Shown here: positions 20,831-42,377 of the stretch, piece after piece
Position numbering within the stretch: position 1 is the first letter of the stretch
Layout of the letters: every line of letters begins with the position of its first letter
Source of the DNA: Trissonchulus latispiculum
Taxonomy: Eukaryota > Nematoda > Enoplea > Enoplida > Ironidae
Direction: 5' to 3'
Assembly (NCBI GenBank): GCA_030248195.1
Contig: JASAND010004132.1
Coordinates: 54,741 to 118,740 of the forward strand
Length of the DNA stretch: 64,000 nt
Notes under the pieces: model-generated
The model's input: the letters and a program-made list of their open reading frames with translations, nothing else
Database searches by the model: none
Told to the model about the DNA's origin: nothing
Program-made: the position numbers and the translations under genes

Positions 20831-21289
20831 CACCTGTCAGGACAAATCTCGAGAAAGGATTGAAAATTAGGAAAAACTTAATTTGTGAAACAGAGTTGGC
20901 TGCTTTGCGAAACAATCTTTCTTTTCCATTTCATCTTTCTTTCTCTTCATTAACTTGACCTGCTCTAATCTCCTAGTTTCAAGAAAAACAAATGACATTG
21001 AAACTTTTCCCAAATGAAGGTCGTTTTCACAAATTATGTGAAACTTTTATAGGCTTGCTTATGCATACGGGTAGTTTATTGTCTATTAAAGTCTGCTTAA
21101 AACTTGTCAAGTTGTTAATCATTAAATGACCTGTTTAAGATTTCAGAGAACTGGGTGAAATTTTACAAAAAATTTATATTAATAAACAATTTTTCAAACA
21201 GCACAATTTTATGGAAAGATGGCATACATATTATGATTCTATAATTTCTGCAGTAAACATATCAAATTCAGTAAGATGACCTATTTGAG
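20831..21289. other. Collagen 5' flank
   Basis: Presumed promoter and 5' UTR of the collagen on the - strand. No motif beyond the possible splice acceptor by the ATG can be supported. Confidence 0.35.
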
Positions 21290-23409: not shown

Positions 23410-23413
<4 letters not shown>

Positions 23414-25107
23414 AAAACGGTTCTAGTTTGAGTAAGTTGTAGGTCGCTTTAGGAACTTTTCCAATGGATATACGTTCCCCGTAGATGATTTCACTGCCGT
23501 TTTACTACAATATAGGTACAATGCAGTCTCAGAGACCCTGAAAGACTTAGGTATGACTCAATCTACGCTCTGGAGAGTGCTGGTGAAGTGACTCTCTCTG
23601 ATTACCGCAATATCCGGTATTACTTAGCAAAAGCGGGTCTATTGACTCGTATCAATCGTAATAGTTCTGAACCCGCCGTAAGAGCACTGGTTAAATGACT
23701 CTTAAATTCTATGTAACCGAGCGCTGGTGAAATGGCTCGTCTCACACTGAAAAGTTAATTCGACAATCAAAGTTATTTTAATATTACAGAATTTCCAGGC
23801 ACTTCATAAACTGTAGGCTTACTGAACAGGTGAACCAGAGACACAGGTATGTTACAAGTGAGAATACCTAATTATGCACATTGATAATGATATGAAGTTA
23901 ACAAATAGTCACGTTAGCACGTCCCATCTTTCTAACTAATTATGCACATTGGTTTGCTCTTTTGAACATATGCTATACAGAGATTTCACAAAACAGACAA
24001 TCAAGTTTTAGAAACTACCAGCAACTAATATAGCATATAACAGCACAGTACTGAGTCGAACACGTAATCCACCAACTAATGTTGCACATTCAGTAAACAA
24101 ACATCGTATCATAGATAGTTTTCCAGGACTTTGATGTGAATTTTAAAACTCTTGGAAAAGCAGCTTACTTTACTCACTTATAATGAACAAGATGGCAAAC
24201 CTTTCGACAGATCCACAGATCGAAATTACCTTACTGATCCGGCTCAAAGGAATGTAATCCAATCAAATGTTCCACTGAGGAAGTAGGAAGGCAGGTGTGG
24301 GGACTGAGGAGTCGAGGGCACGTAATCAAATCAGACTGAACGGTTCTCGGCACCGTGGGCCAACAGACTTATCAGAACTAGGCGCTAACGGCCTGTATAA
24401 CAGATCACAAGACTGGTCTTACAAGACCGACCAAACTCTAACCAAGACAAACCCAAGACTGACCGGAAAAATGGGGGGAACCTGTCAGTCAAAACCCTAG
24501 CTCCGCCTCTCGACTATCCCAGGTGCGTGACGTGCAATTTTGGATACTGTAGTCGGAAAATCTTTGTGTCTCTTTTGATGCCAGGCGATTGTATTGTGTG
24601 AACGAAAGTTACGTAATTTTAGGTGACATAGTGGTTTGCTCAAGGGCTCATGGGGTTCCCCAAAATTCCCGATTAATCCTGATTAACCCCAAAGATAAGT
24701 TTTAACCTCTAAATTGCAAAATTACCCAAATTAAACGGTTTGTTCAAGTATTAACAGAATATGATTTAAGATCCCTTTTTCTATTAGAGTCTTTTGTATG
24801 TTTCTCAACAAAGAACGAATATGTCCAAAAACGACCAAACAAGTTACATAACAGTCAGCCAGAAGACTCCCAACAATTCAACAGATACGGCAGATACAGC
24901 AGTTCAATAGAGGACAGTTTAGGCTCAAAACAGGACTTAAAACAGATTATAGAGAGTACACACTTCGGCTCCTTTAGACTCAAAACCGATCCAAACGAGG
25001 TTCAAAACGCAAAAGCAAACATCTCAGCAACCTCAGCAACAACTCAAAACAGATTACTGCAAAACCAACTCAATCCCTTTTTCATTGCTTTTTCTACTTC
25101 CCTCACA
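23410..25107 (-). repeat. 3' LTR
   Basis: 1698 bp, TGATAAAACGG to TTCCCTCACA on the + strand. About 99.3% identical by eye to 40680-42377 at a constant offset of 17,270. It contains three related 20-24-bp motifs of type GAGYRCTGGTKAARTGRCTC at 23573-23596, 23682-23701 and 23719-23738, and two TAATTATGCACATTG copies at about 23870-23945. Confidence 0.97.
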
Positions 25108-25116
25108 CTCCTTCCC
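25108..25116 (-). promoter_or_regulatory. Polypurine tract
   Basis: On the - strand GGGAAGGAG abuts the first TG of the 3' LTR, the position of the plus-strand primer in LTR retroelements. It independently confirms the LTR edge. Confidence 0.75.
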
Positions 25117-26930
25117 GCAAAAAATGGGGTAATCTTTTACTAGGGGGAGGGATGATTACAGACAGTGACGGTAACGGTACAACTGGCAAACAAACACATG
25201 TAGTAACAGCTATGTACAAATATTGATGCTTAGGCCCATAACAGTGGTAGATTCTGTTCCTTAGTCTTGGAGATAGTTGGTTGGCATGGTGCAGCGATGT
25301 TGAGTAGAGTAGAGTAGAGGTGACCGGTTTCAGTCCACGTCGGTCAGAGCTCTGATGTGAAAGGTTGAAATCAGGACTGAAGGTAGGATGGGAAGGTGAT
25401 CGGTTATAGTCCGCATTGATCAGAGCTTCCGGGGCGCCAAAAGGCGTATTGGCCGGGGCATCGACAGCAGGTGGATGGGCAGAGGGAACTTCGATGGAAA
25501 CGTAGTCCGGTAGGTGGGTGTTCCACGGTTCTCCCTGACAGGGGGATGATGAAGGGTAGATACGGCCGCGAGTGAAGTATGCGGTCGTTTGGCAGACTTC
25601 CAAGGACCGGGAGCTATCCGGGTGGACAACGCCGTCGCCGTTGACATCATGAAACGGGGCATCGAACTACGGACCAGCCAATCATCGGAAGAATCGAACC
25701 ACGGACCAACCAAAGAAAAAACCACTGCTAGCAAAACAGCCTATAAGCGAACACAAACAAATAAGCAACACAAATAGACAAGCTAAAGCACACGCGATTA
25801 ACAAATTTCAAAGTCTTCAGCTCCTTTTCTATTTCTATCATATGCTAATAAACCCAAAGCAAAAGGACAAATGGGAAATCAGCGTGTGCAAGCACAAGGA
25901 AAACGAGGTGAGTACGTGCAGTGCAAGTGCGGTGTTAGTGTGTCTTAGTCAACTTGGAACACGCATCGCTCAAATCAATCAGGTTAGTTTCTTTCCAACA
26001 GGGTTAGTCAACTCCAACCAAGAACCTATGTGTAGGTGTGTGAGGCGTTAGTAGGTCAGTATTCAAACATTAAAAATTAAGCCCAAGAAAACAAGTGTTA
26101 GTTAAAACTTGGTTAAGGTGCGGAATGAGATCCAAGCAGATGGAAGGGTGAAGGCAGCCAAGCTTCAAAGAAAAATATCAAGCTAAAAATAGTACAGACA
26201 TAGCACGGGCCGGACAATAACTGCTACTTCCAAGTTTATTCGTGTTTATTCTTCATAATTAATTAAACCTAAGTTCCTTTTAATCAAGTTGATAAAAGTG
26301 CTAGCCTACAGTCTTTCCGTTGCGTGGTGCTCTAATCAAACCAAGTGTCTAGGAAATTGTGTCCAAACAAGAAGCAAATAACAACATAACAATAAGCGAA
26401 CGTGAAGCGATTAGTCAAAACATAGCGAACACAGAGCCTATACAACAAAAACATTAACAGTGCGATCAGTCGATTAACTATACATATTTACGTATCTTAG
26501 TAATCAATAATTAGTTCCAAAATCCCAACTTGTGGTCAAAAATAGTTTATTCCATCGAAAGTTAGTTAGTCCAAACACAGGTAGAAAGACAAATTCGTAT
26601 CTACGTTCTACGCTTCAAATTCCTGAATTAGAGTTCATTAGGGTCTTTTTCCGTTCAGCTATTCGAAATCAGTCAGTGCCCACCATAGCTAATACATCGG
26701 ACAATTATTATTTCAGCAGATCCGGATCGGTGCAGTACGTACAATAAACATGCAAACATGCGTGCGTTCCCGTAAGTTGTCTCATAACTTGTAATAAGGG
26801 AGTCAAACGGTAGGGAATGGGCAATTATCTGGATAGCGCGACAAGGCTGACAAGCTCTACCAAAAGCAATCACTAAAATCAGTTCTTACGGGAACACATC
26901 AACAGACACAGAAACAGAAACATGCAACAG
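25117..26930 (-). other. Long non-coding tail of the LTR element
   Basis: 1.8 kb between the last accessory gene and the polypurine tract. Two overlapping open frames (25103-25603, TTG start only, and 25420-25734) are Pro/Ser-rich and show no domain. I treat them as unsupported. Confidence 0.5.
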
Positions 26931-27602
26931 TTACAAGTCAGGGCATGCAAAGTCAGGCGGCAATTCAGGGTGCACACGGGGCAAAGCATCCAAAAACATG
27001 CGAACAGTACTGGGGACATGGTAGGTGGTCCAATAACAGCGGTTCCACCCCAGACGAGCTTTTAACACAAGCACACGTTCAGACAAGCACAAGCGATTAG
27101 GACAATGGTACTCAACATTATAGTCAGTGGGCATGCGGGACTGCAGACGTGACTTAGGGAGGGAGGACGCGTAGAGAAGGGAGAGGGGAGCAGCGCGAAT
27201 CTGTGTAGGAATACCATGATAAGACAAAGAATATCGCCAGAAACAATTTGTACAGAGAAGCGTGCACATGTCAGTTACCTCCGGTTCGAGGATGCGAACC
27301 GTCTTTCCGGGAGCAAACAATGCAGTAGTGCCTGGAGCAACGTAGATCTTGGTGGTCCGAAAACAGCGGCGCAGTGAATCAGGCAGCGGGAGGTCAAGGC
27401 GCTCAGGGCCTCGCTGGTGAGGCAAGAGCCAGGATTCTGCAGGGGGACCCGACTCATACTGGATGGTGGGAATGCGCGGCTCAGGTGGGAGTGTGGAACG
27501 AGGAACTCTATGGGACCCTGAAGGTGGAGACAAGCTAGACAGATCAGTAGAGGTGACAAAACTCTCAGAACCAGACAACCAGGCTTCGAGTGACAGAGGC
27601 AT
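26931..27602 (-). CDS. Element accessory gene C (NCFWR family)
   Basis: 223 residues from an ATG at 27602, third of three tandem paralogues downstream of pol. A Pro/Ser-rich N-terminus of about 75 residues precedes the conserved core: LC-x-NCFWR with Cys 117 and 120, HG at 129-130, CPNRLC with Cys 167 and 172, then VLVL and Trp 186. The Cys pairs are 46 residues apart, exactly as in genes A and B, which points to one zinc-binding fold (inference). No signal peptide or membrane segment is evident. The 93-nt gap to gene B suggests that all three share one transcript. Function is unknown; I recognise no family. Position after pol is where retroviral-type elements carry env or regulatory genes. 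Confidence 0.8.
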   Translation of the reverse strand: MPLSLEAWLSGSESFVTSTDLSSLSPPSGSHRVPRSTLPPEPRIPTIQYESGPPAESWLLPHQRGPERLDLPLPDSLRRCFRTTKIYVAPGTTALFAPGKTVRILEPEVTDMCTLLCTNCFWRYSLSYHGIPTQIRAAPLSLLYASSLPKSRLQSRMPTDYNVEYHCPNRLCLSERVLVLKARLGWNRCYWTTYHVPSTVRMFLDALPRVHPELPPDFACPDL

Positions 27603-27694
27603 CCTGCTTTAAGACTACAAACAAAAATAGAATACGGTCAGAAAAGTGTAACGCTCAGACAGCGGGAACCTAACTAGCAGCGGGACAGGACAAC

Positions 27695-28324
27695 TTATTC
27701 TCCTAAGATGTTAGGGACAAACAAAGGACTTTCACCTGGCATGCGCATTCGGAAATCAAGGATATCTCTAGGTAACCAAGCGGACAAGCAATGACAAACA
27801 GAATACAGAGCGGATATCGCATTCGGCTCTAGGCTCTGGACACCACGAGAGTGCATCCATCCTTCGAGCTCATGCAGTACAAGCACAGAAACATGTTGAC
27901 AGTAAATATTGGGACATCGAAAAATACCAGCGCCAAAACTAGGTATACTATCTATTAATCTATGTTTAATCGGGTTATTACATCTACGTACTTCATCTGA
28001 GACGGGATATACTGTGATAGGGACGCCATGAAAGTTTAAACCTACGCGCCAGAAACAGTTAACACAGAGAAACGTACAAACTTGCGCAATCTGGGGGCTT
28101 ACTAGATGAACTCTGGAATTGACCTTAAAATCCTTATGAGTGGGATCTGTGTAAACGTCTACCGTTCCGGGGAGCATCATGAGACCAGTGGGTGACTCGG
28201 CGGGGGTGCGACGTGGACCTTCAAACTCCTGCGGGCAATCTAGGCTATAGGGGATTTCTAATGCAGCATCATCACTAACGAACTCGGGTTCAGACAAGAC
28301 TTCAGGTGGGAGCTTCGGAGCCAT
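27695..28324 (-). CDS. Element accessory gene B (NCFWR family)
   Basis: 209 residues from the ATG at 28324; the codon before it is TTG. An acidic N-terminus of about 45 residues is followed by RVHL, then LC-x-NCFWR with Cys 87 and 90, HG at 99-100, CPNIYC with Cys 137 and 142, VLVL and Trp 156. Spacings match gene A and gene C exactly (CX2C-X46-CX4C-X13-W). The C-terminus ends with a PNILG motif that gene A also has (PNLLG). Likely a small metal-binding nuclear or RNA-binding regulator or host antagonist, but this is only inferred from the position and cysteine pattern. Confidence 0.82.
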   Translation of the reverse strand: MAPKLPPEVLSEPEFVSDDAALEIPYSLDCPQEFEGPRRTPAESPTGLMMLPGTVDVYTDPTHKDFKVNSRVHLVSPQIAQVCTFLCVNCFWRVGLNFHGVPITVYPVSDEVRRCNNPIKHRLIDSIPSFGAGIFRCPNIYCQHVSVLVLHELEGWMHSRGVQSLEPNAISALYSVCHCLSAWLPRDILDFRMRMPGESPLFVPNILGE

Positions 28325-28441
28325 CAATTGTTATTCCTAAAGGTAAGACGGGGACAGTGTAAACGCGACGGGGCTTAAGGATAAGTTATGATCAGTTCCT
28401 AATAACACATCAACCAACAGCATTGCAACACACAACATTCA

Positions 28442-29137
28442 TCACACATAATTATATTGATAGCCCAACAGGTTAGGTAGATAGAGAATAGTATCCTCCG
28501 ACATAGGCATGAAGGGATCACAAACAGAGGCAGGCAAATCAGGATGCACAAAACCGACTTTATCAAGCAAACTAATCTGGTACTCATCATACACAATATT
28601 AGTGGCATGCGACCAATCCTTATGCTCAAGCAACATAACAGTCTTATCAGATTGACAGTGAATATTCGGGCAACAAAACATCGGATCTTGGACAGCAGGG
28701 AACGCACGAAGAAGACAACGCTTGAAAATGTTTGTCTTCTTGAGGAATTTGTCCTCCAATGGGTACAGAACAAACGGAACACCATGAAACGACAAGCCAA
28801 ATCGCCAAAAACAATTCAAGCACAGATAGGCAGCCATTTGGGCAACATGCATACCTTCCTTCAACAGATGAACTCTACGATTTGGGGGAAACAACTCCGG
28901 GAAACGAGGATCTGTGGCAACGAAGTATCGGGTTCCTTGACGGACTCTGACCAGTCCAGATGGTAAGTGATCACGTTCCCTCAGGGGACCAATCTCATGG
29001 CTCATCAAGCTGTAGTACAACGACTCGGGGTCTGGAGGAGAAGACACAGGATTCTGCAGGACAGGATTGGGCGGAGGAGTTGGAGGCTGGTAGTCTACTA
29101 CAGGTTCATCTCGGTAGGGCAGATCCGTTGGCGGCAT
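28442..29137 (-). CDS. Element accessory gene A (NCFWR family)
   Basis: 231 residues from the ATG at 29137, which has a favourable A at -3. The frame is open a further 32 codons upstream but without ATG. A Pro-rich start precedes RVHL, LC-x-NCFWR with Cys 106 and 109, HG at 118-119, CPNIHC with Cys 156 and 161, VMLL and Trp 175. It is the closest of the three to pol. It shares its C-terminal PNLLG motif with gene B, so A and B look more alike to each other than to C. Function unknown. Confidence 0.82.
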   Translation of the reverse strand: MPPTDLPYRDEPVVDYQPPTPPPNPVLQNPVSSPPDPESLYYSLMSHEIGPLRERDHLPSGLVRVRQGTRYFVATDPRFPELFPPNRRVHLLKEGMHVAQMAAYLCLNCFWRFGLSFHGVPFVLYPLEDKFLKKTNIFKRCLLRAFPAVQDPMFCCPNIHCQSDKTVMLLEHKDWSHATNIVYDEYQISLLDKVGFVHPDLPASVCDPFMPMSEDTILYLPNLLGYQYNYV

Positions 29138-30202: not shown

Positions 30203-33200
30203 TTACTGCTCAGACGAGTGTCGACCCGATAGGGGTCCAGAGGAAGACTTCCCATGTTGGGACTTCCTAAAGGGATTTCTAAAGATGGGGCTAGCACCAG
30301 AAAGCAATGGGCTTTCGGAGAATAGTTTCTCGACATTTGGTGCAGACGATCTGCCACCTTGGTTGGCACGATCAGCGGGGGACGACTGGTTGGAGGAGGA
30401 AGAAGATACTAACTCCATAATCGAGATTTTGGGGTTATTGCTGGTAGGCCATTTCCAGTCAGCTGGTGTTTGCACTGAAAGCACTACCATGAAATGATCA
30501 CTGTTTTCATTGTACAGATACAGTGCATTTCGTTCGTAACTTTGGCTAGAACCTAATAGAGCATCGGGCAGAAACTGTTGCCATGCCCATACTTTGCCAA
30601 ACTTTGAGTAAGATTGAATCGGAGTACGTAACCAGGCAGCAGTCAAAAATAACTCATCGTCAGTTGCATATTCTGCAGTTTTAGTCAGTCTATTTCTAAC
30701 AGCTTCTGGGTCAGTAAAAAGTGTCCGAAATCGGCGTTTATGTTCATAAGTAGAGAAAAATTCTAATAACCCACGCTTTACAGTTTTCCAATGATCTTCC
30801 GATCCCGTAATAGCTAGAGAGATAGCTCGATAGAAGCAATTTCCGTCACCCACCACATTGATTACCTCATATGGTTCGTGAAGGGGGGTGTGTCTCATCA
30901 TTTCCGGAAGACGATGCTCTACTGGAAGGCCGCGTAATAAGGCCATATGTCCTTGCCAACGTGCATCTACAGGATTAAAAAAGTTCCTACGATTAAATGC
31001 TATGGGATCATTTTCGGGAGAAAGTGATTCCTCTCCTACGAATTGCGGAATGCTGTCAGTTTCAGAAGCAGACTCTTGCGAGGAAACTACAACCTTTGGC
31101 GGAACGACACTTTTCTGTTTAGGAGAGAGAGGTACACGTTTCCTAGGCTGAACGGGAGGTTTCTCGGGGCTAGTGTCAGGACGACTGACCTTAGATCTCC
31201 GGCTGGGTTGTTTGCGGACGAATGGCTTGGGAGTCTCATTTTCGGAAGGTGAATCGGCTGGGGGTGGCGTCTTAGGTAGGTTAGCTTTCTGTAACTTGGA
31301 AACATTCTTAACCGGTTGTTCGTCAGGGATAGGAGATTCAGCTCTATCAGAGCCTTCGTCGTCGTGATCGTGAACGGGCGCGGTAATCACACGAGGTTCA
31401 ACACAGGGGTACATATTATTGAACTGTACCTTGACCCTCTTGGCACGGCGATTGCCGGCAGGGTATACTTCCGCAACACAACCGACAATTTTCTCGACAC
31501 GGTATGGGCCAATCTTCTTATCTAAAAGTTTATAGACTTGATCGCGCTTAGCTACATTCGAAGCCTTAATCATGACTAAATCACCAACCTGGAATTTTGG
31601 TTCTACAGCGTTTTTATTATAATTTCTATCGTTTTCCCGTGCAGCGCCGATCTTTTCGCGTGCTAACGACCAAGCAAGTTGGAGTGCCTCAGTGGCTTCC
31701 CGCACATAGTCGAATCCAGAATACTTTCTATCGGTGGGAATTGAAACGTTAGTAGCACTGGGAAGAACAGGATCCCAAGCATGCAGCAAATAATGAGGGG
31801 TTTCGCCTGTAGTCGAATTAATGGAGGTGTTGTACGCAAACTGGCAGTACGGTACCATATTATCCCACTCTAGGTGGTTCTCGGTAACCGTAGCAAGCAT
31901 ATCCAACAGTGTCCTATGCCAGCGTTCGACCTGTCCGTTTGCGGCAGGATGATATCTAGTGGTTTCAAGTTTGCGAGTCTGTACCTGTGAGCAAATTTCC
32001 TTATTCAGCTGGGCGACAAATTCTTTGCCCTGATCTGAGATCAACAACTTTGGAGAGCCATACTGTAAAATAACAAATTCGAGAAAACTTTGTGCAATAG
32101 AGTAAGCGGTTTTGTTCTTAATGGGGATGGCAATCACATATTTTGAAAAGGCATCAATGAAGCTCAAAATGTGTTTCATCCCGCTTTTGGAAGTTTTGCT
32201 GACATCCATTAGATCACAGTGAACGCGTTCGAAAGGTTCGACAGCCATGGGAGCATGTCGAAGCAGGGCTTTTGGGTTCTTCGGGGGACCCTTTCGTTTT
32301 TGGCAGCGGGGACAAGATTCAACCCATCGCTTAACATCAGCGTACATTCCGGGCCACCAGAAATGCTGCGATAATCTGAAGCTAGTTTTATTCCGACCGC
32401 CGTGTGCGGCATAAGGGCTATCATGGCATGCGGCTAAAGCTTCGTCACGCAAACTTTCGGGAACGGCTAACACTTCCAAAGTAGTGTCCCTGACCTTTTC
32501 GAGATGAACTAATACGTCGTCGCGCATGTCACATTGTTCGGCCAATGACGTAATTTTGACAGCCAAATTGAAATTACTAGGTAAATTTCCCAGCGTTTTA
32601 TAGTCAATAATTCCTTTCAAAAGTAAGTCCTCGCGCTGCAGAGTTTGCAACTTAGCCCAAGATTTAGGATTTAAAGAGAGGTTAGAATTGTCCCGGACGG
32701 CATGGTGAAAAACGTCACTAAAAACGGCTGTCACCGGATCAACTCGCTTCGAACGACCAGCTTCCGGTGAGACTTCTACCGGCTTTTCATAAGCTTTACT
32801 TGGATAGTCTAAATCTAGTATGCGTGGTCGCGGGGCTGGTTTACGGTCCGGCTCATCTTCGCTTGTTTCCGAGCTAGAAATTTTCCGCGCACTCCTCAAT
32901 TTCGGTTGTTTTTCAGGTGATGGTTGACCTTGTTCCTCATCAGAATCGCTGGAGCTAGAGGGTTGCGAAATCTTTGAAACTTTGGATCGAACGGCTGGCG
33001 GTCCCTTTTTTGCTCTTAATTTGTTAACAACAGCGACATTAGGGTCTCGGGCCCGTCGGGCCTGTCCACGAATAATAACCAGATTTATGTGAGCGACTAG
33101 CTCCTCACTCTCGTCCTGATAAATTTGCACAAATTTTCTGTCATTTTCCTGTTCATCTCCTAACAGACCCTTTGCAATATCGGCAAATAGAGGATTCCTA

Positions 33201-33406
33201 GAGAGTCCATCTGCGTTCCTAAGCTGAGGATTATTTCGGTGCTTAATTTCAAAGTCATATTCTGAAAACGTCATTTGCCAACGGGCTAATCGAGAATTTC
33301 GGGGTGGATGCTTCATCAACCAGCGTAGCGCAGAATGATCAGTGAACAAGGTAAAAGGGGGACCACCATAGAGATAATGACGAAAATGCTCGATTCCAAA
33401 TTTCAT
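30203..33406 (-). CDS. pol: Pol 3' part: RNase H end, integrase, OTU protease domain
   Basis: 1067 codons from the ATG at 33406; the real product continues from the upstream RT frame. Residues 1-70 finish RNase H (FTDHSAL, then HRNN...ADGLSR). A linker of about 200 residues rich in charge and Ser follows. Integrase: zinc finger His 328, His 335, Cys 365, Cys 368; catalytic Asp 398, Asp 458 and Glu 494 with the canonical 35-residue gap; GPY at 633-635. After a basic, Pro/Ser-rich stretch (680-800) comes an OTU-type cysteine protease module: GDGNCFYRA with Asp 854 and Cys 857, and a SDHFMVV strand with His 971. OTU enzymes usually cleave ubiquitin chains. All key residues are present, so it may be active. 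Confidence 0.93.
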   Translation of the reverse strand: MKFGIEHFRHYLYGGPPFTLFTDHSALRWLMKHPPRNSRLARWQMTFSEYDFEIKHRNNPQLRNADGLSRNPLFADIAKGLLGDEQENDRKFVQIYQDESEELVAHINLVIIRGQARRARDPNVAVVNKLRAKKGPPAVRSKVSKISQPSSSSDSDEEQGQPSPEKQPKLRSARKISSSETSEDEPDRKPAPRPRILDLDYPSKAYEKPVEVSPEAGRSKRVDPVTAVFSDVFHHAVRDNSNLSLNPKSWAKLQTLQREDLLLKGIIDYKTLGNLPSNFNLAVKITSLAEQCDMRDDVLVHLEKVRDTTLEVLAVPESLRDEALAACHDSPYAAHGGRNKTSFRLSQHFWWPGMYADVKRWVESCPRCQKRKGPPKNPKALLRHAPMAVEPFERVHCDLMDVSKTSKSGMKHILSFIDAFSKYVIAIPIKNKTAYSIAQSFLEFVILQYGSPKLLISDQGKEFVAQLNKEICSQVQTRKLETTRYHPAANGQVERWHRTLLDMLATVTENHLEWDNMVPYCQFAYNTSINSTTGETPHYLLHAWDPVLPSATNVSIPTDRKYSGFDYVREATEALQLAWSLAREKIGAARENDRNYNKNAVEPKFQVGDLVMIKASNVAKRDQVYKLLDKKIGPYRVEKIVGCVAEVYPAGNRRAKRVKVQFNNMYPCVEPRVITAPVHDHDDEGSDRAESPIPDEQPVKNVSKLQKANLPKTPPPADSPSENETPKPFVRKQPSRRSKVSRPDTSPEKPPVQPRKRVPLSPKQKSVVPPKVVVSSQESASETDSIPQFVGEESLSPENDPIAFNRRNFFNPVDARWQGHMALLRGLPVEHRLPEMMRHTPLHEPYEVINVVGDGNCFYRAISLAITGSEDHWKTVKRGLLEFFSTYEHKRRFRTLFTDPEAVRNRLTKTAEYATDDELFLTAAWLRTPIQSYSKFGKVWAWQQFLPDALLGSSQSYERNALYLYNENSDHFMVVLSVQTPADWKWPTSNNPKISIMELVSSSSSNQSSPADRANQGGRSSAPNVEKLFSESPLLSGASPIFRNPFRKSQHGKSSSGPLSGRHSSEQ
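30467..30871 (-). other. OTU deubiquitinase-like domain in pol
   Basis: Covers residues about 846-980 of the integrase frame. The GDGNCFYR signature lies at 30829-30850 and the catalytic His codon at 30494-30496. Cys-to-His spacing of 114 residues fits OTU domains. The domain is C-terminal to the integrase GPY region, separated by a disordered linker. Confidence 0.85.
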
Positions 33407-35570
33407 AGCTTAGACACTCTTTATCGTGGGTGGAATAATTTCGCTCATACTTTTTCAAAGATCGGGCGGCATAAGCAACAGGGTGGTATTTACCGTCATC
33501 CTGTTCCTGAGACAACACAGCACCTAATCCTAAATCAGATGCATCGGTATGCAGAATGAAGCCCTTAGCAAGGTCAGGATGTGCTAACACGGGTGCTTCG
33601 ATCAAACTCTTTTTTAGGAGATCGAACGATTGCTGGTGTGTGTTATTCCAGACAAAACAAACAGCCTTCTTTTTAAGAGAGTATAGCGGAGCAGCCAGAT
33701 GCGCAAAACCTTTAATAAACTTCGCATAATAGGCGCACATTCCTAGAAAACTTTCCACGTCCTTAATGTTTTTAGGTACGGCTAGATCATGTATGGCTTG
33801 GATTCTCTCCTTTAGAGGTTCAACCCCTTGCTCTGAAATGATGTGCCCCAAGTAAGTGACAGACTTTTTCAAAAAATGACATTTACCAGGATTCATTTTC
33901 AAGTCAGCGGCGCGCAGTCGGTCAAAAACTTCTTGCATGATCCCCAAATGTTCCTCAAAAGTCTTTGAAAAGATCAAAATATCGTCTATGTAAATAATGC
34001 ACTTTTTCCATTGCAAATCGCCTAGAATTCTTTCCATGCAGCGTTGAAAATTTCCGGGAGCGCACTTTAGACCAAAAGGCAGTACGTTATACTCAAACTG
34101 GCCGTGAAAAGTATTGAAGCTTGCTTTTGCTTTGGATTCCTCATCAAGTTCGATCTGATTGAATCCTTTGCTCAAATCGATAGTGGAAAAGAACTTTGAC
34201 CCTTTTAGTGACGTCATGATGTCGTCAATGCGCGGAATTGGATACACATCCGGGTCGCTAATTTTGTTGACTCTCCTAAAATCAACGCACAAGCGTAATT
34301 TACCTCCCGGTTTGGGTACGTAGATCATAGGCGAACTCCAAGGACTGGTGGAGGGCCTGATTAAACCATATTTCAACATTTCGGTAAGCTCCTCAAGCAG
34401 CGGCTGTCTCAAGTGTACGGGAAGCCTATAGGGCGTGGCGTATAGCGGTTTAGCATCTCCCGTGTTAATGTGAGCTTTAAAAATGGTGCATTTGCCAATG
34501 TCGAAAGGATGTTGAGAAAAACAGTTTCTATTCGCATTTAGAAGACCCAGAAATTGCCCAATTTTCGTTTTTGACAAATTTTCCTGATCGAAAGAAATTT
34601 CGCGCATTGGTTCCGGCAAGTCGTTTAACGTACACGAGCGGCCAGTGAGACAAGTATTGACGCTATAACCAAACTTTTGGCTAATACTTCTGCCAGATTT
34701 CGGAGGATTTCTCAAACAAACGGGCTCCCCATTTTCATAGACTAGTGGTCGGTAATTTCGAATGTTACCGCCTCGCCGGAGTTCATTCTGAGGCGTTACG
34801 TTTCCTAGGGTAGAATTTTCATAGATGGTAACCGCTTGTCCTGTCTTGTTTTTCATAAGAACAGGAATCAATCTTTGCCTCAAATTTACCATAGCAGGCA
34901 TCACCTGAATGCTAGAGTTTTCTGACGCGAATTTAGCTTCAGTTGGCTCAAGATGACCATCATATTTCAATTTTTCCATACTCTCAACTAATGCGGGCAC
35001 TGCAACTTCTGAGTAGGCCGGTATGGTAACTTTCTGTATTGCAGAAACCCGGTAAGCGGTGTGAGTAACCGGCGTTTGATGGATAAGCTTAGCGACCATC
35101 GGAGGGCGTTCAGGCTTACACAGCCTCAGTTCACCTTGCGCAAAACTTAGTGTAAGATCCCCACCGTGTTCGTGCAAGAAATCAGTACCTATGAGACAAT
35201 CCTCAGCTAGTCCCTTAGGAACCAGAAAGGTATGTTCAATAGTTATTCCCGGTGTATCATAGAATTCAACAGGTACTTTGACGGCTCCTCGAAATTTTAA
35301 GGCCTGGCCGTTTACTCCTTCGGCCCGCAATGGTCTATCCATGGGTAGTACTTTCAAATTTAAAAATTTAACTAAACTTTCGTTCATCAGGCTGAAATTT
35401 GCGCCAGTGTCTAACAGCGTTTGAACTGGCTGCCTTTTCAGATTAACATAGATCATGGGTAATGGCCTTGGTGGCATCGCACTCACTTCCTCCATACAAC
35501 AAGTGCATGGTTCTCGCTGTGTCATACCTATCTGAAAAACTTCGTTCTTCCTAGGCTTAGCTGGTATCAT
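33339..35570 (-). CDS. pol: Pol 5' part: second protease, reverse transcriptase, RNase H
   Basis: 743 codons from the ATG at 35570, overlapping the upstream env/protease frame by 14 nt. Second retropepsin: VQTLLDTGAN with Asp 54, then CLIGTDFL at about 125-132. Reverse transcriptase about 375-570: LRLCVDFRRVN, FSTIDLSKGF and YIDDIL with the catalytic Asp pair at 529-530. The RNase H start follows: HTDASDLGLGAVL with Asp 676, and HDKECL. In the middle of RNase H, after KECL, the frame runs into a 25-residue nonsense tail. The true continuation (KFG...HFRHYL) is in the +1 frame beginning near 33411, so a one-base insertion or assembly error sits at about 33410-33413. Confidence 0.95.
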   Translation of the reverse strand: MIPAKPRKNEVFQIGMTQREPCTCCMEEVSAMPPRPLPMIYVNLKRQPVQTLLDTGANFSLMNESLVKFLNLKVLPMDRPLRAEGVNGQALKFRGAVKVPVEFYDTPGITIEHTFLVPKGLAEDCLIGTDFLHEHGGDLTLSFAQGELRLCKPERPPMVAKLIHQTPVTHTAYRVSAIQKVTIPAYSEVAVPALVESMEKLKYDGHLEPTEAKFASENSSIQVMPAMVNLRQRLIPVLMKNKTGQAVTIYENSTLGNVTPQNELRRGGNIRNYRPLVYENGEPVCLRNPPKSGRSISQKFGYSVNTCLTGRSCTLNDLPEPMREISFDQENLSKTKIGQFLGLLNANRNCFSQHPFDIGKCTIFKAHINTGDAKPLYATPYRLPVHLRQPLLEELTEMLKYGLIRPSTSPWSSPMIYVPKPGGKLRLCVDFRRVNKISDPDVYPIPRIDDIMTSLKGSKFFSTIDLSKGFNQIELDEESKAKASFNTFHGQFEYNVLPFGLKCAPGNFQRCMERILGDLQWKKCIIYIDDILIFSKTFEEHLGIMQEVFDRLRAADLKMNPGKCHFLKKSVTYLGHIISEQGVEPLKERIQAIHDLAVPKNIKDVESFLGMCAYYAKFIKGFAHLAAPLYSLKKKAVCFVWNNTHQQSFDLLKKSLIEAPVLAHPDLAKGFILHTDASDLGLGAVLSQEQDDGKYHPVAYAARSLKKYERNYSTHDKECLSYEIWNRAFSSLSLWWSPFYLVH

Positions 35571-38500
35571 GAGCGGCAGGGTTACGCATGTACCATCTGA
35601 AGCAGGCCAGGTAATGGTGTGCTGGCCAAAATCCCGGAAAGGTTACCATAAAATCGGATCCCAAGATGCAATCGGTGGTCAATTTCTCTACCACCAGAAA
35701 TTTCCAGTTATGCACAGGTAAGCGTTTTTCAGCCCCAGCAAAAATTATGGGAATTTTCACGTAACCCAAAATTTGACACTTTCCCCCATTGGCGGTGCGT
35801 AGGGACCCCAAGGTTTCCACAGGCGTAGTGGTCAATCCTAGCCTATTCACCAAATTCTGAGACACTATTGACAGCAAAGATCCGGTATCAAATAGGGCGT
35901 TGACTGGCTGTCCTACCAATAACAGACTAATCATAAGTGGTATGGTCCTAACCATTAAGACTGAGTGAGCATTCACCATTCTCCCAGAACCTCGAGTGGA
36001 CAGTCGTGTCTGTGGTCCCGATCCATCAGACTCAGGACTGACGGGTCTTACATTCCGTTTAAACGGACTGGTCGCGGCATCCGCGTGTGCTTGAGAGGTT
36101 GCTGGAGAATCTTCTTCCTCAGACCCTTCGATAGCTACCTGACGTGAGAACCGTACAATCCTATTACCTTTTCCCTTATGATCACACCCTAGGTCTATGA
36201 GTGGTGAGGGTTGACTCTCCTGACTATCATCAGTCAATGGTCGAGAGCTGATATCCAATGGATCCTGTCCATAGTCGGACATAGACGAGGCATATGAGGT
36301 GTCCCTTGAAATCGGTTTATAGTGAGTGGTTGCGTGGCACCGGTTCGCCATGGACTTACGGTTGCGCTCAGCGAACGTAGTTTCTAGACTTTCTCGGGGT
36401 CGATAAGGCATCGGATCGCTCTTGACTGAGAGGTTGCCTAACTCAATCGGTACCTCTTCTTCATCGTCACTGAACAAATTTTCCTGCAGTTTCTGATTCT
36501 CAATAGGCGCCGAAATAGCGGGCCGATTGGGTCGAGGGGAGGGAGACTTACGGTTTCTAATCTTGGCCCTAAATTTTCTACCACAAGGAGTAATCCACCA
36601 GATAATACAACAGCCTAATAGCACAATGACTATAACTACCATTAAACCGTGCTTGAGCTCTAAGGGAATTAAAGGTAAATGCACATAATTTTTGACTTGA
36701 TTTTGAATTAAGTTTTTCGCTTGCTCGTTCTCATATTCCGCCGTTGAAAGTTCGGTAAAGTGTAACGGGATCCGTCCCAAAGGGACGGGAACAATCGTTT
36801 TTTTCAAGTCTGAGGTAGTTACCGTAGTCTTAGCAATGCCTAGCCTGCTGGTTAAAATGGTATTACCGATAATCAAGTGCAGGTATCGACCGTGCTCGAA
36901 CCAGAGCGTTCCAGTTTCTGGTACGGGTACTCTTTCACCTTCGGCTACGTGATTTAGCGAGGGCGATCGCGCGACAATTACCTCAGTATAATTTGTCCTA
37001 ACCAGTACACCTGCGGGCGTAGTACGATAGATAGTAGAATTATCCAATACTTTGACCTGTATGTATTCGCGGCAGTGCTCAAACTCTTCACCTACGCGCT
37101 CGGGTGGATAACTAATAAGAATCTGTAGACACTTCGCTCTTAAACTCATCACAATTGCATTAGGAGGACAAAACCATAGACCCGGCGCTGTTTTACACGC
37201 GGATACGTCTATCTCCCTAATCTCGCCAGTATCTAACCGTTGCGCGTAATCCGGCAAAGGTACCAAAGAAGTAATTCCGTTTTTTCGTGAATTGTAACCT
37301 ACGTTCTGAATCGCATATAGGGGTCTTACCTCCTGTTCTAACGGTACAGGGATTTCCAACATAAATCCGAATCGCAGCGTATTGAAATCGATCTTAATTG
37401 GGTAAACCTTCCCGAACTGGTAGATCAAACTCGGTTCCTGACTAAGTAGAGAATTTCTCAGAGAGGGATGGGTACGGATGATCCCTTTCAAAGTTTGCAA
37501 GTTTACCAAGTTCGGATTAATCTCAGAGTGTAGACCAGCTCGCATGACAGAATTTAAACCGTTTCGTAAAGATGAAGTAAAAATATGAGCGAGTAGTTGC
37601 ATGTAAATTTGGCGCATGTAAGAGAAGTTTGAGCAGCGAGCCCTAATAAGCAAAGTGGTCAAGTCTTGAACAGTGTGGTGCAAAAAAGCATAGACCGGCT
37701 CATTAGCGTGGACAATCCGTTTGATTGAATCAGTAATTTTGAGTTGGTCTTCCCTCAAAACGTTAAACCCATGTTCCACGGCCATTACTCGATTATCTAG
37801 TTCGCCCAAGTGATAAGAGTTACCCAAACTATTAGCAAGTCCTCCTAGTCCTAGTGCTCCAGCTAACAGAAATTCAATAAAGCGCTTAGGTCGGCTGTGC
37901 GTTTGCTCCGGTACCGGATAAGAAGTACAGACCCCAGGTGTTGAACGACACAAACTTGAGAGCAACTTTGAGTAAAAGTGAGTGTTTAAAACTCCCGAAT
38001 ACAATTTTCGATATTCAAGCTTAATCGAGTCAATTTCACGTTCCAAAAAGTCAAATTGCGGGCAACTTTGGTTTATCATACGAACACAGTACTGATCAGT
38101 CTTAGCCTTTCCGGTTGAAAGGTCAATGCAATCTTCCTCATTAGCCCATTCGGGGGGCTTCCACTGAGGAGACATAGGCGGTACGGCCAGCTGCACGATT
38201 AGTGCCAGATATTCTGTTTTCTGCGAGATTACCCCAATCCCAGCAGGACTTAATACTGCTCCCCAACGGGGCAAAACTAAGGTACCAATTTTGGCAATTT
38301 CGTCTGCTAGAAAACGAGACGAGTCAGAATCGGCCTGTGTCTGCGCATTAGCTTTAGATACAAGAAAGGCCAACAGAACCCAAGCGGCAGGTACAGCTGC
38401 CTTCCTGCAAGTTCTTACAGCAGCTGCTAGAGTCCACATCAAAAACAGGAATAGGTAGGAAAAAGTGTCCGCTTCGGGGAACAACGTATCCTCATCCCGG

Positions 38501-39051
38501 CCCGATTCAGTTTCTACCTCCCTCGATTTCTCAAGGTTACACTGAGTTGCTACCGTGTTAGTGTCAACGATAGGTTCAAATACTGTTCTGTCCCGTCTCA
38601 GACTAGGCATCCGGGGGGGTCGCCGCGGCAAGGGCACAAACAGTTCCTCTTCCGTAGAGGTAAAAGAACTTGCGCTGGGCGGGCGGTAAACGGGTTCCCT
38701 CATTTGACTGTATGCGTCAGGCGTACGACATGTGCAGACCAATGGTCGACGGCACACCAGGACTTTATGTTGGAAATGTGGCGAGACTAAACAACGCTTT
38801 GCGTGCATCATGCAATCTTTGGACACCCTACGAGTCGTGCGGACAGTATACTGGCCCGAAGAGTCGGATCGAGAATCTTCTCTACGTCTGGGAGAACGAT
38901 AATGTTCCCGGGTCGAATACCCGTTGCGACAGTCGCTGCCGGCCGAATCAGATGTACCAGAATACTGGCGGTTTTGGCTGTTTTCCTTATAATATTGCCC
39001 CTCATTTTGGGTCCGAGAAACGGCGAATTTAGGCCCGTATTCTCTTTTCAT
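35557..39051 (-). CDS. env: Envelope-like glycoprotein fused to first retropepsin
   Basis: 1164 codons from the ATG at 39051, which overlaps the gag-frame stop as ATGA. The frame is open upstream to 39390, through the gag zinc knuckle. Residues 1-190 are basic and disordered. A hydrophobic leader (about 197-236) ends SKANAQ. The ectodomain has cysteines and four NxS/T sites (327, 475, 671, 687). RPKR at 387-390 is a furin-type site followed at once by a hydrophobic Gly/Ala/Leu stretch (391-410) and a helical heptad-like region, as in class I fusion proteins and F-like Env of errantiviruses. A membrane anchor lies at about 801-820, then a basic and acidic cytoplasmic region of about 200 residues. 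At about 1038-1135 is a retropepsin, NALFDTGS with Asp 1055, then CILGSDFM. The protease C-terminus continues in the +1 frame after TTT-C-CGG near 35638. Confidence 0.88.
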   Translation of the reverse strand: MKREYGPKFAVSRTQNEGQYYKENSQNRQYSGTSDSAGSDCRNGYSTREHYRSPRRREDSRSDSSGQYTVRTTRRVSKDCMMHAKRCLVSPHFQHKVLVCRRPLVCTCRTPDAYSQMREPVYRPPSASSFTSTEEELFVPLPRRPPRMPSLRRDRTVFEPIVDTNTVATQCNLEKSREVETESGRDEDTLFPEADTFSYLFLFLMWTLAAAVRTCRKAAVPAAWVLLAFLVSKANAQTQADSDSSRFLADEIAKIGTLVLPRWGAVLSPAGIGVISQKTEYLALIVQLAVPPMSPQWKPPEWANEEDCIDLSTGKAKTDQYCVRMINQSCPQFDFLEREIDSIKLEYRKLYSGVLNTHFYSKLLSSLCRSTPGVCTSYPVPEQTHSRPKRFIEFLLAGALGLGGLANSLGNSYHLGELDNRVMAVEHGFNVLREDQLKITDSIKRIVHANEPVYAFLHHTVQDLTTLLIRARCSNFSYMRQIYMQLLAHIFTSSLRNGLNSVMRAGLHSEINPNLVNLQTLKGIIRTHPSLRNSLLSQEPSLIYQFGKVYPIKIDFNTLRFGFMLEIPVPLEQEVRPLYAIQNVGYNSRKNGITSLVPLPDYAQRLDTGEIREIDVSACKTAPGLWFCPPNAIVMSLRAKCLQILISYPPERVGEEFEHCREYIQVKVLDNSTIYRTTPAGVLVRTNYTEVIVARSPSLNHVAEGERVPVPETGTLWFEHGRYLHLIIGNTILTSRLGIAKTTVTTSDLKKTIVPVPLGRIPLHFTELSTAEYENEQAKNLIQNQVKNYVHLPLIPLELKHGLMVVIVIVLLGCCIIWWITPCGRKFRAKIRNRKSPSPRPNRPAISAPIENQKLQENLFSDDEEEVPIELGNLSVKSDPMPYRPRESLETTFAERNRKSMANRCHATTHYKPISRDTSYASSMSDYGQDPLDISSRPLTDDSQESQPSPLIDLGCDHKGKGNRIVRFSRQVAIEGSEEEDSPATSQAHADAATSPFKRNVRPVSPESDGSGPQTRLSTRGSGRMVNAHSVLMVRTIPLMISLLLVGQPVNALFDTGSLLSIVSQNLVNRLGLTTTPVETLGSLRTANGGKCQILGYVKIPIIFAGAEKRLPVHNWKFLVVEKLTTDCILGSDFMVTFPGFWPAHHYLACFRWYMRNPAAHDTS

Positions 39052-40142
39052 TTCAGGAGGAAAGTCCCTACCCTGAGCAGGTTTCCTATCATAGCGATCG
39101 TTCCTCTCATAGCGATCACGTCTCGGGGCATAATCGTCGCGCCTGTTGTCCTGATAGTTTCGATTATCCCGCCCATAGCGGTTTCCTCGACCGTTCTGGT
39201 CGTAGTTCCCTTCTCTTGGGTTCTGAAAATTTGAATTATTTCGGAAATTCTGGTTTCCATCCGATCTACGCTGAAAATTTCGATCGGAACCCTGGTTATT
39301 GGGTCGGAACGCTCCTCCGCCAGGTTGGCGACATTCTCGGCGAACGTGTCCAGGTCTATTGCAGTTAAAGCAAGTCGTACCCGGGGTAGATCACGTCCCT
39401 TTCCGGTCCTATTTGGATTTCCTCTCTGTTTGGAATCCAACTCGAATTGCTCAAATTTGGCCTTCAATTCTTTGACTGCCTTTTCAGCCTCAGCGATGGC
39501 AGCAGGTCTGTCCCTATCATTTCGAAAGTTTGGTTCAATAAAAGAGGGATAGGCCTCCCCAGGGTATTCACCCTCAGCCTGAAGGGCCTTCTCAACAGCA
39601 CGCTCCATGGTTTTACAACCGGGAGGTACCCGTGCCTTCAAATCACTTCGCAATCCGAAAAGGAATAATCTCAACTTCAACAGTTCTAGCTGGTCCTCCG
39701 TGAACCCATCCTTTTCTGTGAAACTTAGTCGCGCGTATCTATTGAGTCTCATCAGATAATCCATAACTGGTTCACCCTTCTCTTGTTTCACTTGAAACAT
39801 GAGCGACGATGCATGGAGAGCAGTGTGGGGGGGGATCATAACCTTTTTCGTGGCCTCCACCATCTCAGCCCACGTGCCACGGCTGGGTTTTGGCACTGAC
39901 CTAAATAACTCTAAAGCTCGTCCTTCTAAGGAACTAGAAAAGGTAAGGACTTTTTGTCCTTCCTCAAAATCCATGACCTGACAGAAACGGTCATATTTTT
40001 CGAGGTGTTCCTCGAACGACTCAGAGGGCAGCCCATGATAGATAGGCACCGAGCTGTAGGCGGTTGCTACACCCTGAGCCCTAATGGCAGAATTAAACTC
40101 TGTCAACGTATCGTTCAGTTTAGCTAAGACTTGTGATTCCAC
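39048..40142 (-). CDS. gag: Gag (matrix/capsid part)
   Basis: 364 codons, open from 40196. The first possible initiator of this frame is only GTG at 40142; no ATG lies between the upstream stop (40197-40199) and the body of the protein. An ATG at 40216 opens a short overlapping frame (to 40124), suggesting that the true start is there with one base missing downstream, or a non-AUG start. Residues about 30-230 resemble Ty3/Gypsy capsid (retrotransposon Gag family): FEEHLEKYDRF, LRLFLFGLRSDL. A charged coiled region follows at 225-255. The last about 115 codons are probably read out of frame, because the zinc knuckle lies in the next frame. Confidence 0.85.
   Translation of the reverse strand: MESQVLAKLNDTLTEFNSAIRAQGVATAYSSVPIYHGLPSESFEEHLEKYDRFCQVMDFEEGQKVLTFSSSLEGRALELFRSVPKPSRGTWAEMVEATKKVMIPPHTALHASSLMFQVKQEKGEPVMDYLMRLNRYARLSFTEKDGFTEDQLELLKLRLFLFGLRSDLKARVPPGCKTMERAVEKALQAEGEYPGEAYPSFIEPNFRNDRDRPAAIAEAEKAVKELKAKFEQFELDSKQRGNPNRTGKGRDLPRVRLALTAIDLDTFAENVANLAEERSDPITRVPIEIFSVDRMETRISEIIQIFRTQEKGTTTRTVEETAMGGIIETIRTTGATIMPRDVIAMRGTIAMIGNLLRVGTFLLK
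39052..39390 (-). CDS. gag: Nucleocapsid region with CCHC zinc knuckle (frame of env)
   Basis: The frame that becomes env/protease is open from 39390. It encodes CFNCNRPGHVRREC (39331-39372), a perfect CX2CX4HX4C retroviral zinc knuckle, followed by a Gly/Arg/Asn-rich nucleic-acid-binding tail. The capsid frame above is offset by one base, so reaching the knuckle needs a -1 shift near ACCCCGGG at about 39380-39388. That could be programmed, a lesion, or an assembly error in a homopolymer. Confidence 0.85.
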
Positions 40143-40657
40143 GCTTGGTGGAACGGCATTGGCCCTCTGGGCCCAGGTTGCGCCGGTACTCCTAACTCAG
40201 CTAAATCGTTCGGCATTCTGCTATATTATTAAAACGTCTGCTATTTCGCCTGTCTCAAACCTAACGCAGTATATTCAATCTAACTTTCTACTCACAAGTT
40301 CAAAGTTCACGAGTCTCGAATCTAACGTAAGGTATGCTGCTTAACGTTATATTCTAAAGTTCAACGATCAAGTTATAGCTCATGAAAAACGAATCAGTGT
40401 CAATTCGACGGAGATATGATAGGTGAATTATTGACATACGTAATTAATAAAATTTCAAGGCCTACGTACTTGATAATTAGTTAAATTAACAGGTTACACA
40501 TACAGTGAATCAATACATACAGTTATTGTAAACCAGGGGTTTTATTTTTGTTGGTCGTGAGAATTCTTTTCGAGGAAAAGGCTAGATTTTCAAACAGGTA
40601 AGACAGATTCAATTAGTTTGAACTGCAGAGCTCATGAAAAATCACCCAGTTTTTCCC
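40143..40657 (-). other. 5' leader of the LTR element
   Basis: Region between the primer site and gag, expected to carry packaging and splice-donor signals. None can be assigned from sequence alone. Confidence 0.45.
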
Positions 40658-40675
40658 TCGCCTGAGGGAGCTCCA
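40658..40675 (-). promoter_or_regulatory. Candidate tRNA primer-binding site
   Basis: Four bases after the end of the 5' LTR the - strand reads TGGAGCTCCCTCAGG. TGG is the usual first triplet, complementary to the CCA end of a tRNA. I could not match the tRNA by memory. The adjoining CCCTC-AGGC-GAGGG forms a small hairpin. Confidence 0.45.
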
Positions 40676-40679
40676 CATG

Positions 40680-42377
40680 TGATAAAACGGTTCTAGTTTG
40701 AGTAAGTTGTAGGTCGCTTTAGGAACTTTTCCAATGGATATACGTTCCCCGTAGATGATTTCACTGCCGTTTTACTACAATATAGGTACAATGCAGTCTC
40801 AGAGACCCTGAAAGACTTAGGTATGACTCAATCTACGCTCTGGAGAGTGCTGGTGAAGTGACTCTCTCTGATTACCGCAATATCCGGTATTACTTAGCAA
40901 AAGCGGGTCTATTGACTCGTATCAATCGTAATAGTTCTGAACCCGCCGTAAGAGCACTGGTTAAATGGCTCTTAAATTCTATGTAACTGAGCGCTGGTGA
41001 AATGGCTCGTCTCACACTGAAAAGTTAATTCGACAATCAAAGTTATTTTAATATTACAGAATTTCCAGGCACTTCATAAACTGTAGGCTTACTGAACAGG
41101 TGAACCAGAGACACAGGTATGTTACAAGTGAGAATACCTAATTATGCACATTGATAATGATATGAAGTTAACAAATAGTCACGTTAGCACGTCCCATCTT
41201 TCTAACTAATTATGCACATTGGTTTGCTCTTTTGAACATATGCTATACAGAGATTTCACAAAACAGACAATCAAGTTTTAGAAACTACCAGCAACTAATA
41301 TAACATATAACAGCACAGTACTGAGTCGAACACGTAATCCACCAACTAATGTTGCACATTCAGTAAACGAACATCGTATCATAGATAGTTTTCCAGGACT
41401 TTGATGTGAATTTTAAAACTCTTGGAAAAACAGCTTACTTTACTCACTTATAATGAACAAGATGGCAAACCTTTCGACAGATCCACAGATCGAAATTACC
41501 TTACTGATCCGGCTCAAAGAAATGTAATCCAATCAAATGTTCCACTGAGGAAGTAGGAAGGCAGGTGTAGGGACTGAGGAGTCGAGGGCACGTAATCAAA
41601 TCAGACTGAACGGTTCTCGGCACCGTGGGCCAACAGACTTATCAGAACTAGGCGCTAACGGCCTGTATAACAGATCACAAGACTGGTCTTACAAGACCGA
41701 CCAAACTCTAACCAAGACAAACCCAAGACTGACCGGAAAAATGGGGGGAACCTGTCAGTCAAAACCCTAGCTCCGCCTCTCGACTCTCCCAGGTGCGTGA
41801 CGTGCAATTTTGGATACTGTAGTCGGAAAATCTTTGTGTCTCTTTTGATGCCAGGCGATTGTATTGTGTGAACGAAAGTTACGTAATTTTAGGTAACATA
41901 GTGGTTTGCTCAAGGGCTCATGGGGTTCCCCAAAATTCCCGATTAATCCTGATTAACCCCAAAGATAAGTTTTAACCTCTAAATTGCAAAATTACCCAAA
42001 TTAAACGGTTTGTTCAAGTATTAACAGAATATGATTTAAGATCCCTTTTTCTATTAGAATCTTTTGTATGTTTCTCAACAAAGAACGAATATGTCCAAAA
42101 ACGACCAAACAAGTTACATAACAGTCAGCCAGAAGACTCCCAACAATTCAACAGATACGGCAGATACAGCAGTTCAATAGAGGACAGTTTAGGCTCAAAA
42201 CAGGACTTAAAACAGATTATAGAGAGTACACACTTCGGCTCCTTTAGACTCAAAACCGATCCAAACGAGGTTCAAAACGCAAAAGCAAACATCTCAGCAA
42301 CCTCAGCAACAACTCAAAACAGATTACTGCAAAACCAACTCAATCCCTTTTCCATTGCTTTTTCTACTTCCCTCACA
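40680..42377 (-). repeat. 5' LTR
   Basis: 1698 bp, same borders as the 3' LTR. Followed at 42378 by the continuation of the TA tract that receives the element. Confidence 0.97.

Follow-up and report, generated by a model that had tools for sequence, protein, structure and literature searches.

What kind of retroelement carries an envelope-like (env) region between its gag and pol parts, and how would its Env protein be made from there? The question is raised by an element of 18,968 bp in the nematode Trissonchulus latispiculum (GenBank assembly GCA_030248195.1, contig JASAND010004132.1). It lies on the minus strand at positions 23410-42377 of the window, by which we mean the whole stretch of 64,000 nucleotides that was analysed (contig positions 54,741 to 118,740, forward strand). 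The explanation that we favour, at a probability of about 0.6, is that the element belongs to a multi-subfamily Ty3/Gypsy-type (Metaviridae-type) nematode family resembling endogenous retroviruses. Its open copies would encode a membrane-threaded polyprotein of ~3,350 residues, with Gag, nucleocapsid (NC), Env, two proteases (PR1 and PR2), reverse transcriptase (RT), RNase H (RH), integrase (IN) and an OTU domain in this order, followed by two or three small open reading frames (ORFs) with a cysteine motif.

Pfam matches and motifs agree with the gene order that a first-pass annotation, made from the letters of the window, had proposed: gag, zinc knuckle, env-like region, PR1, PR2, RT, RH, IN, OTU and three small paralogues (Table 1). 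The Pfam matches are, in order, Retrotrans_gag, zf-CCHC, two gag-asp_proteas, RVT_1, RNase H, Integrase_H2C2, rve and OTU. The order PR-RT-RH-IN, together with a DD35E integrase carrying a GPY/F motif, is that of a Metaviridae pol. The coding region of the window copy falls into four ORFs, its frame being interrupted in at least four places (in the gag N-terminus, between gag and the knuckle, in PR1 and in RNase H), as judged against other copies with an uninterrupted frame. The LTRs (long terminal repeats) had been described as intact, and they are; the coding region is not.

We searched the host genome (733.8 Mb in 21,732 contigs) for further copies. An RT search, in which 59 of 6,964 candidates were scored, returned the window itself, 21 matches at 91-97%, 25 at 84-87% and 12 at 75-76% identity. 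We named the types of these matches A (with a subset at 92-93%, called a), B and C, and two more divergent types D and E; where a count is given over six types, each of A, a, B, C, D and E is represented by a single copy. Twenty-one of the 59 scored RT matches fall within frames that run for 3,000 codons or more and have no stop in the matched part, and the typical frame has ~3,350 codons. Of 20 upstream pieces, 19 of which come from contigs preselected for frames of at least 3,100 codons, 18 can be read without interruption from a conserved gag ATG across env, PR1 and PR2 and on into RT. The D and E pieces, picked through the position of a small ORF and not by frame length, show no interruption in the 2,043 and 2,063 codons that were read; they represent distinct types, being 72% identical in the PR2-RT part and 94% in env. 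An env search, with 73 of 1,126 candidates scored, gave 27 matches whose frame reaches 3,000 codons or more and five with internal stops. For 35 of the 47 A- and B-type RT matches an env match lies 929-955 nt upstream on the same strand, and the end of env is present together with the two proteases at all 20 automatically fetched RT loci (A/a types, the window included). Because the frame is uninterrupted in these RT, upstream-piece, D/E and env-match frames, we judge from the sequences that the natural order is a single frame, Gag-NC-Env-PR1-PR2-RT-RH-IN-OTU, shared by the five types A-E. The proposal of a distinct env-bearing nematode lineage with rearranged modules thus stands as regards the nematode host, the env and the non-canonical order, while the modules form one long frame and not separate rearranged genes.

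The ends of the element are those of an LTR retrotransposon, as in Metaviridae (Ty3/Gypsy), with a primer-binding site and a polypurine tract recognised by likeness. The two LTRs of 1,698 bp each differ at 11 positions without any gap (99.35% identity; the alignment itself spans 1,701 nt with 12 mismatches, since it includes 3 nt of flank holding one mismatch), in line with the earlier estimate of ~99.3%. On the minus strand they read TGTGAG...TTATCA, with the usual TG...CA ends. The sequence resembling a primer-binding site, TGGAGCTCCCTCAGG, recurs at the matching position in 11 of 20 other copies (8/8 A/a and three B) and is not found there in the other nine. The polypurine tract that had been reported is present as a purine-rich stretch, GCGGGAAGGAG, before the 3' LTR. 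TATA stands at both ends of the element, as had also been noted, and is compatible with a 4-bp target duplication; since the left flank is a (TA)n array, this carries little weight as proof. A second A-type copy, on contig C10800, also lies beside a TA-rich stretch, which hints at a preference for TA-rich targets.

The LTRs of a pair are spaced 17,270 bp apart in the window, 17,216 bp on contig C10800 and ~17,051 bp on contig C14655, and are 99.3% identical over 1,645 aligned bases in C10800 and 99.2% over 1,110 in C14655. As the pairs are nearly identical, several insertions are young. On contig C14655 the LTRs differ partly by one-base homopolymer gaps, suggestive of assembly indels, and this raises the chance that some of the frame breaks in the window are assembly errors. 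Such gaps and breaks could be left by misassembly or by the nesting of insertions into a chimera, a possibility that the first-pass annotation had itself raised. Yet the gene order is repeated on many contigs in five types, the LTR pairs of two other copies are similarly spaced, env stands in the same place in other copies, and the three copies read downstream hold OTU and small paralogues. As an explanation of the order, a chimera is refuted and we find it hardly credible for this copy, although it may explain some of the frame breaks. On contig C1309, matches resembling paralogue b (2234-2854 and 19338-19958) flank an element with gag and RT, two elements being close together.

The env-like region, of ~600 residues between the zinc knuckle and PR1, has the layout of an envelope protein. 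A signal peptide, a furin site, an adjoining hydrophobic stretch and a C-terminal transmembrane (TM) helix together make up the layout of class I fusion proteins, and counterparts of all four were found, with the signal region falling under the hydropathy cut-off in two of six types. An AxA signal-peptidase-like site is kept in all six types, while the hydrophobic region before it drifts (39% identity between A and C). A furin-type R-x-K-R is likewise present in all six (RPKR in five, RQKR in D), directly followed by the stretch FIEFLLAGALGxGGxANSL, again in six of six with D included. The five copies that were aligned also have in common four N-glycosylation sites, a single TM helix and a GRKF tail. 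A conserved stretch rich in Cys and His (HAKRC...HKV...C.C) lies upstream of this region, in the linker between NC and Env (38470-39330).

When one A copy is set against one a copy, dN/dS is 0.004 and 0.003 in the two parts of Env, compared with 0.028 in the capsid, 0.004 in RT and 0.008 in integrase; among more distant types dS is saturated and most rows have no ratio. Identity between A and D/E is 81% in env, 75% in gag, 64% in PR2-RT and 54% in PR1. By these measures Env is under very strong purifying selection, as constrained as RT.

From architecture, recurrence, purifying selection and motifs, which can be read from the DNA, we predict the topology and processing of the polyprotein and a fusogenic role for Env, as well as functions for the OTU domain and the small ORFs. 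By the usual topology rules Gag would be cytosolic, the Env ectodomain lumenal and the remainder cytosolic. An internal signal peptide would direct the growing polyprotein to the endoplasmic reticulum and leave Gag on the cytosolic side; translocation would bring the Env ectodomain into the lumen, where it would be glycosylated and cleaved by signal peptidase and by furin; the TM helix would stop transfer, so that the part from PR1 to OTU is cytosolic again. The twin retropepsins would then release the parts of the polyprotein, and PR1 and PR2, which share 30-37% identity, could pair within one chain. Both proteases of the window have DTG; one B-type copy has DAG in PR1.

The same DNA architecture could also be read in another way, in which Env comes from a separate spliced or spliced-leader (SL) trans-spliced RNA and the single frame only lets gag-pol read through env or splice around it. 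A precedent for spliced products is Cer1, in which one overlaps the single gag-pol frame (PMC3315495, PMC10309623, as far as these texts were covered). Consistent with such an RNA, an acceptor-like site lies 338 nt upstream of env in 4/4 A copies and 134 nt upstream in 3/4 a copies. These distances differ, and within 700 nt upstream of env we found no acceptor-like site common to the types: one B copy of seven has one, and the four C copies, the D copy and the E copy have none. Neither do the six types have a Met column in common among the 112 columns that precede the signal cleavage site. The strongest excesses in a scan of synonymous sites were close to the junction of gag and NC and within the tail, and the sole excess at an env border, just past the TM helix, ranks 12th (0.15). 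We therefore consider a separate env RNA rather unlikely, and, because neither an acceptor-like site nor a Met column is common to the types, favour translation of Env within the polyprotein.

Several observations weigh against this preferred explanation. The acceptor scan is crude, and env could come from a spliced or trans-spliced RNA that it missed. Equimolar Gag, Env and Pol, as a single polyprotein would give, are unusual for a retrovirus. The 19-residue hydropathy maximum of the signal region ranges from 1.26 to 2.14 and passes 1.5 in four of six types (A 1.47, C 1.26). Among the 73 of 1,126 env candidates that were scored, 12 of the 47 A- and B-type RT matches have no listed env match. 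No convincing relative of env was found in Pfam, in PDB, in a protein database (8,000 and 7,995 candidates scored) or in viral contigs, and its AlphaFold model is unusable (pLDDT 31), also for judging whether the trimeric helical core of class I fusion proteins is present. There is likewise no Baculo_F-type Pfam match in 12 members, although the lack of a match is by itself weak. Since no relative was found and the model is unusable, the region is named Env for its motifs, layout and constraint. The lack of a relative and of a usable fold, and an evolution much slower than is usual for retroviral env genes, would also suit a different membrane-anchored secreted protein that the element had captured, and that was neither envelope nor fusogen. 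Against such a protein stands the class I fusion protein layout of the region: a signal-peptide-like region, R-x-K-R with a Gly/Ala-rich hydrophobic stretch directly behind it, conserved sites for N-glycosylation and, at the C-terminal end, one TM helix with a basic tail. We hold a capture of this kind to be quite unlikely.

A bolder form of the polyprotein explanation is that the family is a deep, recently active nematode retrovirus lineage in which Env would be a TM segment of the Gag-Pol polyprotein, threaded in the manner of a flavivirus (Gag in, Env out, Pol in), the two proteases could pair in the same chain, and Env evolves as slowly as RT. This we regard as possible and put forward tentatively.

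At the end of the frame, the catalytic motif of the OTU domain (the Cys in DGNC and the His motif) is shared by the window and three other copies, one each of a, B and C. Its top PDB sequence matches are weak and comprise VCPIP1 and viral OTU domains that are entered under the name of RNA polymerases (6dx5, E 2e-4); domains of the 6dx5 type we take to be nairovirus deubiquitinases, and the OTU domain of the element may be a viral deubiquitinase too. The small ORFs share the motif C-x-x-C-[FY]-W ... C-P-N-x-x-C and found no relatives in the searches made. Three small paralogues had been proposed as accessory genes: they are present in other copies as well, with a number that varies, from three in the window and one type-a copy to two in a B copy and a C copy. 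An acceptor-like site lies within 30 nt of the ATG in six of ten small ORFs, compared with 49 of 1,357 ATGs across the sequences that hold them; the ten ORFs are related to each other and are not independent trials. The small ORFs thus look like products of spliced RNAs, and might act as regulators translated from spliced mRNAs; CERV of Cer1 (PMC10309623, in part) serves here as an analogy only.

In a quick RT tree with 108 rows, the nearest neighbours of the window are two database proteins at ~50% identity, with which it groups (SH-aLRT 98, no bootstrap), and with Ty3/Gypsy RTs, including matches named Ty3-I (P0030) and Gypsy (P0048); the rows are database matches and not standard reference clades. 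Insect errantiviruses such as gypsy join a pol of the Ty3/Gypsy type to an env with furin site and TM helix, which is there a separate 3' ORF expressed from a spliced RNA. In our element env lies between NC and PR, unlike the 3' env of baculovirus-F kinship of errantiviruses, and neither a BEL/Pao RT nor the C-terminal class II env of Belpaoviridae was found.

The following comparisons are limited to the parts of the cited reports that were covered. The closest layout is that of Burro, giant gypsy-like LTR retrotransposons of planarians in which gag and PR are separated by an in-frame env-like region that matched gypsy Env by HHpred; their ORF1 has 4,873 aa, with BIR, ankyrin, MATH, BCL2-like and dUTPase-like domains (PMC6431247). 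Both are very long elements with extra ORFs and one giant polyprotein, which has an N-terminal Gag, zinc knuckles and an in-frame env between gag and pol. The window ORFs, in contrast, have no Pfam match to those five Burro domains at E<=1, and the present element has two retropepsins, a C-terminal OTU and an env with no detected relative, Burro being compared by description only. The hookworm Atlas virus has, like other nematode belpaoviruses, Gag, Pol and Env in one stop-free polyprotein (2,828 aa in Atlas) in a nematode host; its Env is C-terminal and class II (phlebovirus-like) and its BEL/Pao RT has YVDN, whereas here Env is internal and the Ty3/Gypsy RT has YIDD (PMC9094657). Cer1 of C. 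elegans is also a nematode Gypsy/Ty3-related element with one gag-pol frame and an accessory protein from a spliced RNA; it differs in being ~8 kb long, with no env or OTU described in the parts covered, and CERV shares exons with gag (PMC3315495, PMC10309623). A gypsy-type integrase followed by a C-terminal OTU occurs in part of the Ginger1 families, which, unlike our element, are DNA transposons with terminal inverted repeats and without gag, RT or LTRs (PMC2836005). Among the matches listed from open-licence PMC text (subscription papers and preprints lying outside this scope), there was neither a nematode element with env between gag and pol nor a Ty3/Gypsy polyprotein ending in OTU. In the texts covered, an env inside gag-pol is thus described earlier only from flatworms (Burro). 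Because Burro's in-frame env and the single polyprotein of Atlas are published, the layout is not unprecedented; it is a Burro-like order in a nematode, and new in its combination of tandem proteases, a terminal OTU and accessory cysteine-motif ORFs.

Around the element, the window holds a cuticle collagen ORF (Col_cuticle_N, Collagen; 19769-20836, minus strand), and as its N-terminal domain is a nematode one, the gene identifies the host as a nematode. Exons of an SK-type calcium-activated potassium channel lie at 49346-52289 on the plus strand, and tandem arrays at 54299-60570 comprise a perfect 24-mer, CGATCCGATCCGGCAAATGGCCGG (3.5 copies), a 31-mer, CGATC runs and TGACCCGG arrays.

Table 1. 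Features of the element in window coordinates, in the direction of the coding strand.
Feature	Position	Strand	Evidence or remark
5' LTR, 1,698 bp	40680..42377	-	repeat alignment; TG...CA ends
Primer-binding-site-like TGGAGCTCCCTCAGG (putative), 4 nt internal to 5' LTR	40661..40675	-	
gag capsid region	39393..40196	-	Retrotrans_gag E 7.8e-8; in the window copy the N-terminal start is out of frame
CCHC zinc knuckle (nucleocapsid)	39331..39369	-	Pfam, motif
Internal hydrophobic, signal-peptide-like region ending ANA/Q	38344..38469	-	AxA kept in 6/6 types
Env N-terminal (SU/F2-like) part up to RPKR	37882..38343	-	motifs
Fusion-peptide-like FIEFLLAGALGLGGLANSL	37825..37881	-	kept in 6/6 copies (one each A, a, B, C, D, E)
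Env C-terminal (TM/F1-like) part; TM helix 36595-36648	36571..37881	-	
Basic cytosolic tail and spacer	35974..36570	-	
PR1, retropepsin, DTG at 35878-35895	35640..35973	-	frame broken near end
PR2, retropepsin, DTG at 35397-35417	35178..35474	-	Pfam, motif
Reverse transcriptase core, YIDD at 33981-33992	33837..34319	-	RVT_1 E 1.8e-38
RNase H, frame break near 33410	33257..33650	-	RT_RNaseH_2 in one ORF; C-terminal half of RT_RNaseH in next
Integrase: H2C2, DD35E core, GPY/F	31496..32464	-	Pfam, motifs
OTU cysteine-protease domain, DGNC ... SDHF	30485..30850	-	Pfam E 4.4e-6
Small paralogue a (CxxC...CPNxxC)	28442..29137	-	
Small paralogue b	27695..28324	-	
Small paralogue c	26931..27602	-	
Polypurine-tract-like GCGGGAAGGAG, directly before 3' LTR	25108..25118	-	
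3' LTR, 1,698 bp	23410..25107	-	repeat alignment

The element would make nematodes the second phylum with a Burro-type layout of env inside gag-pol, here with different extra domains. Should the membrane-threaded polyprotein prove real, it would show that an envelope can be made and packaged in a further way, with no spliced env RNA, and would be a case of a retroviral-type Env constrained as strongly as RT. If the bolder form is true as well, so slow an Env would imply a fixed and essential use, for example in obligate cell-to-cell or germline transfer. With many copies in long open frames in one sequenced nematode, the question of how Env is expressed can be tested directly.

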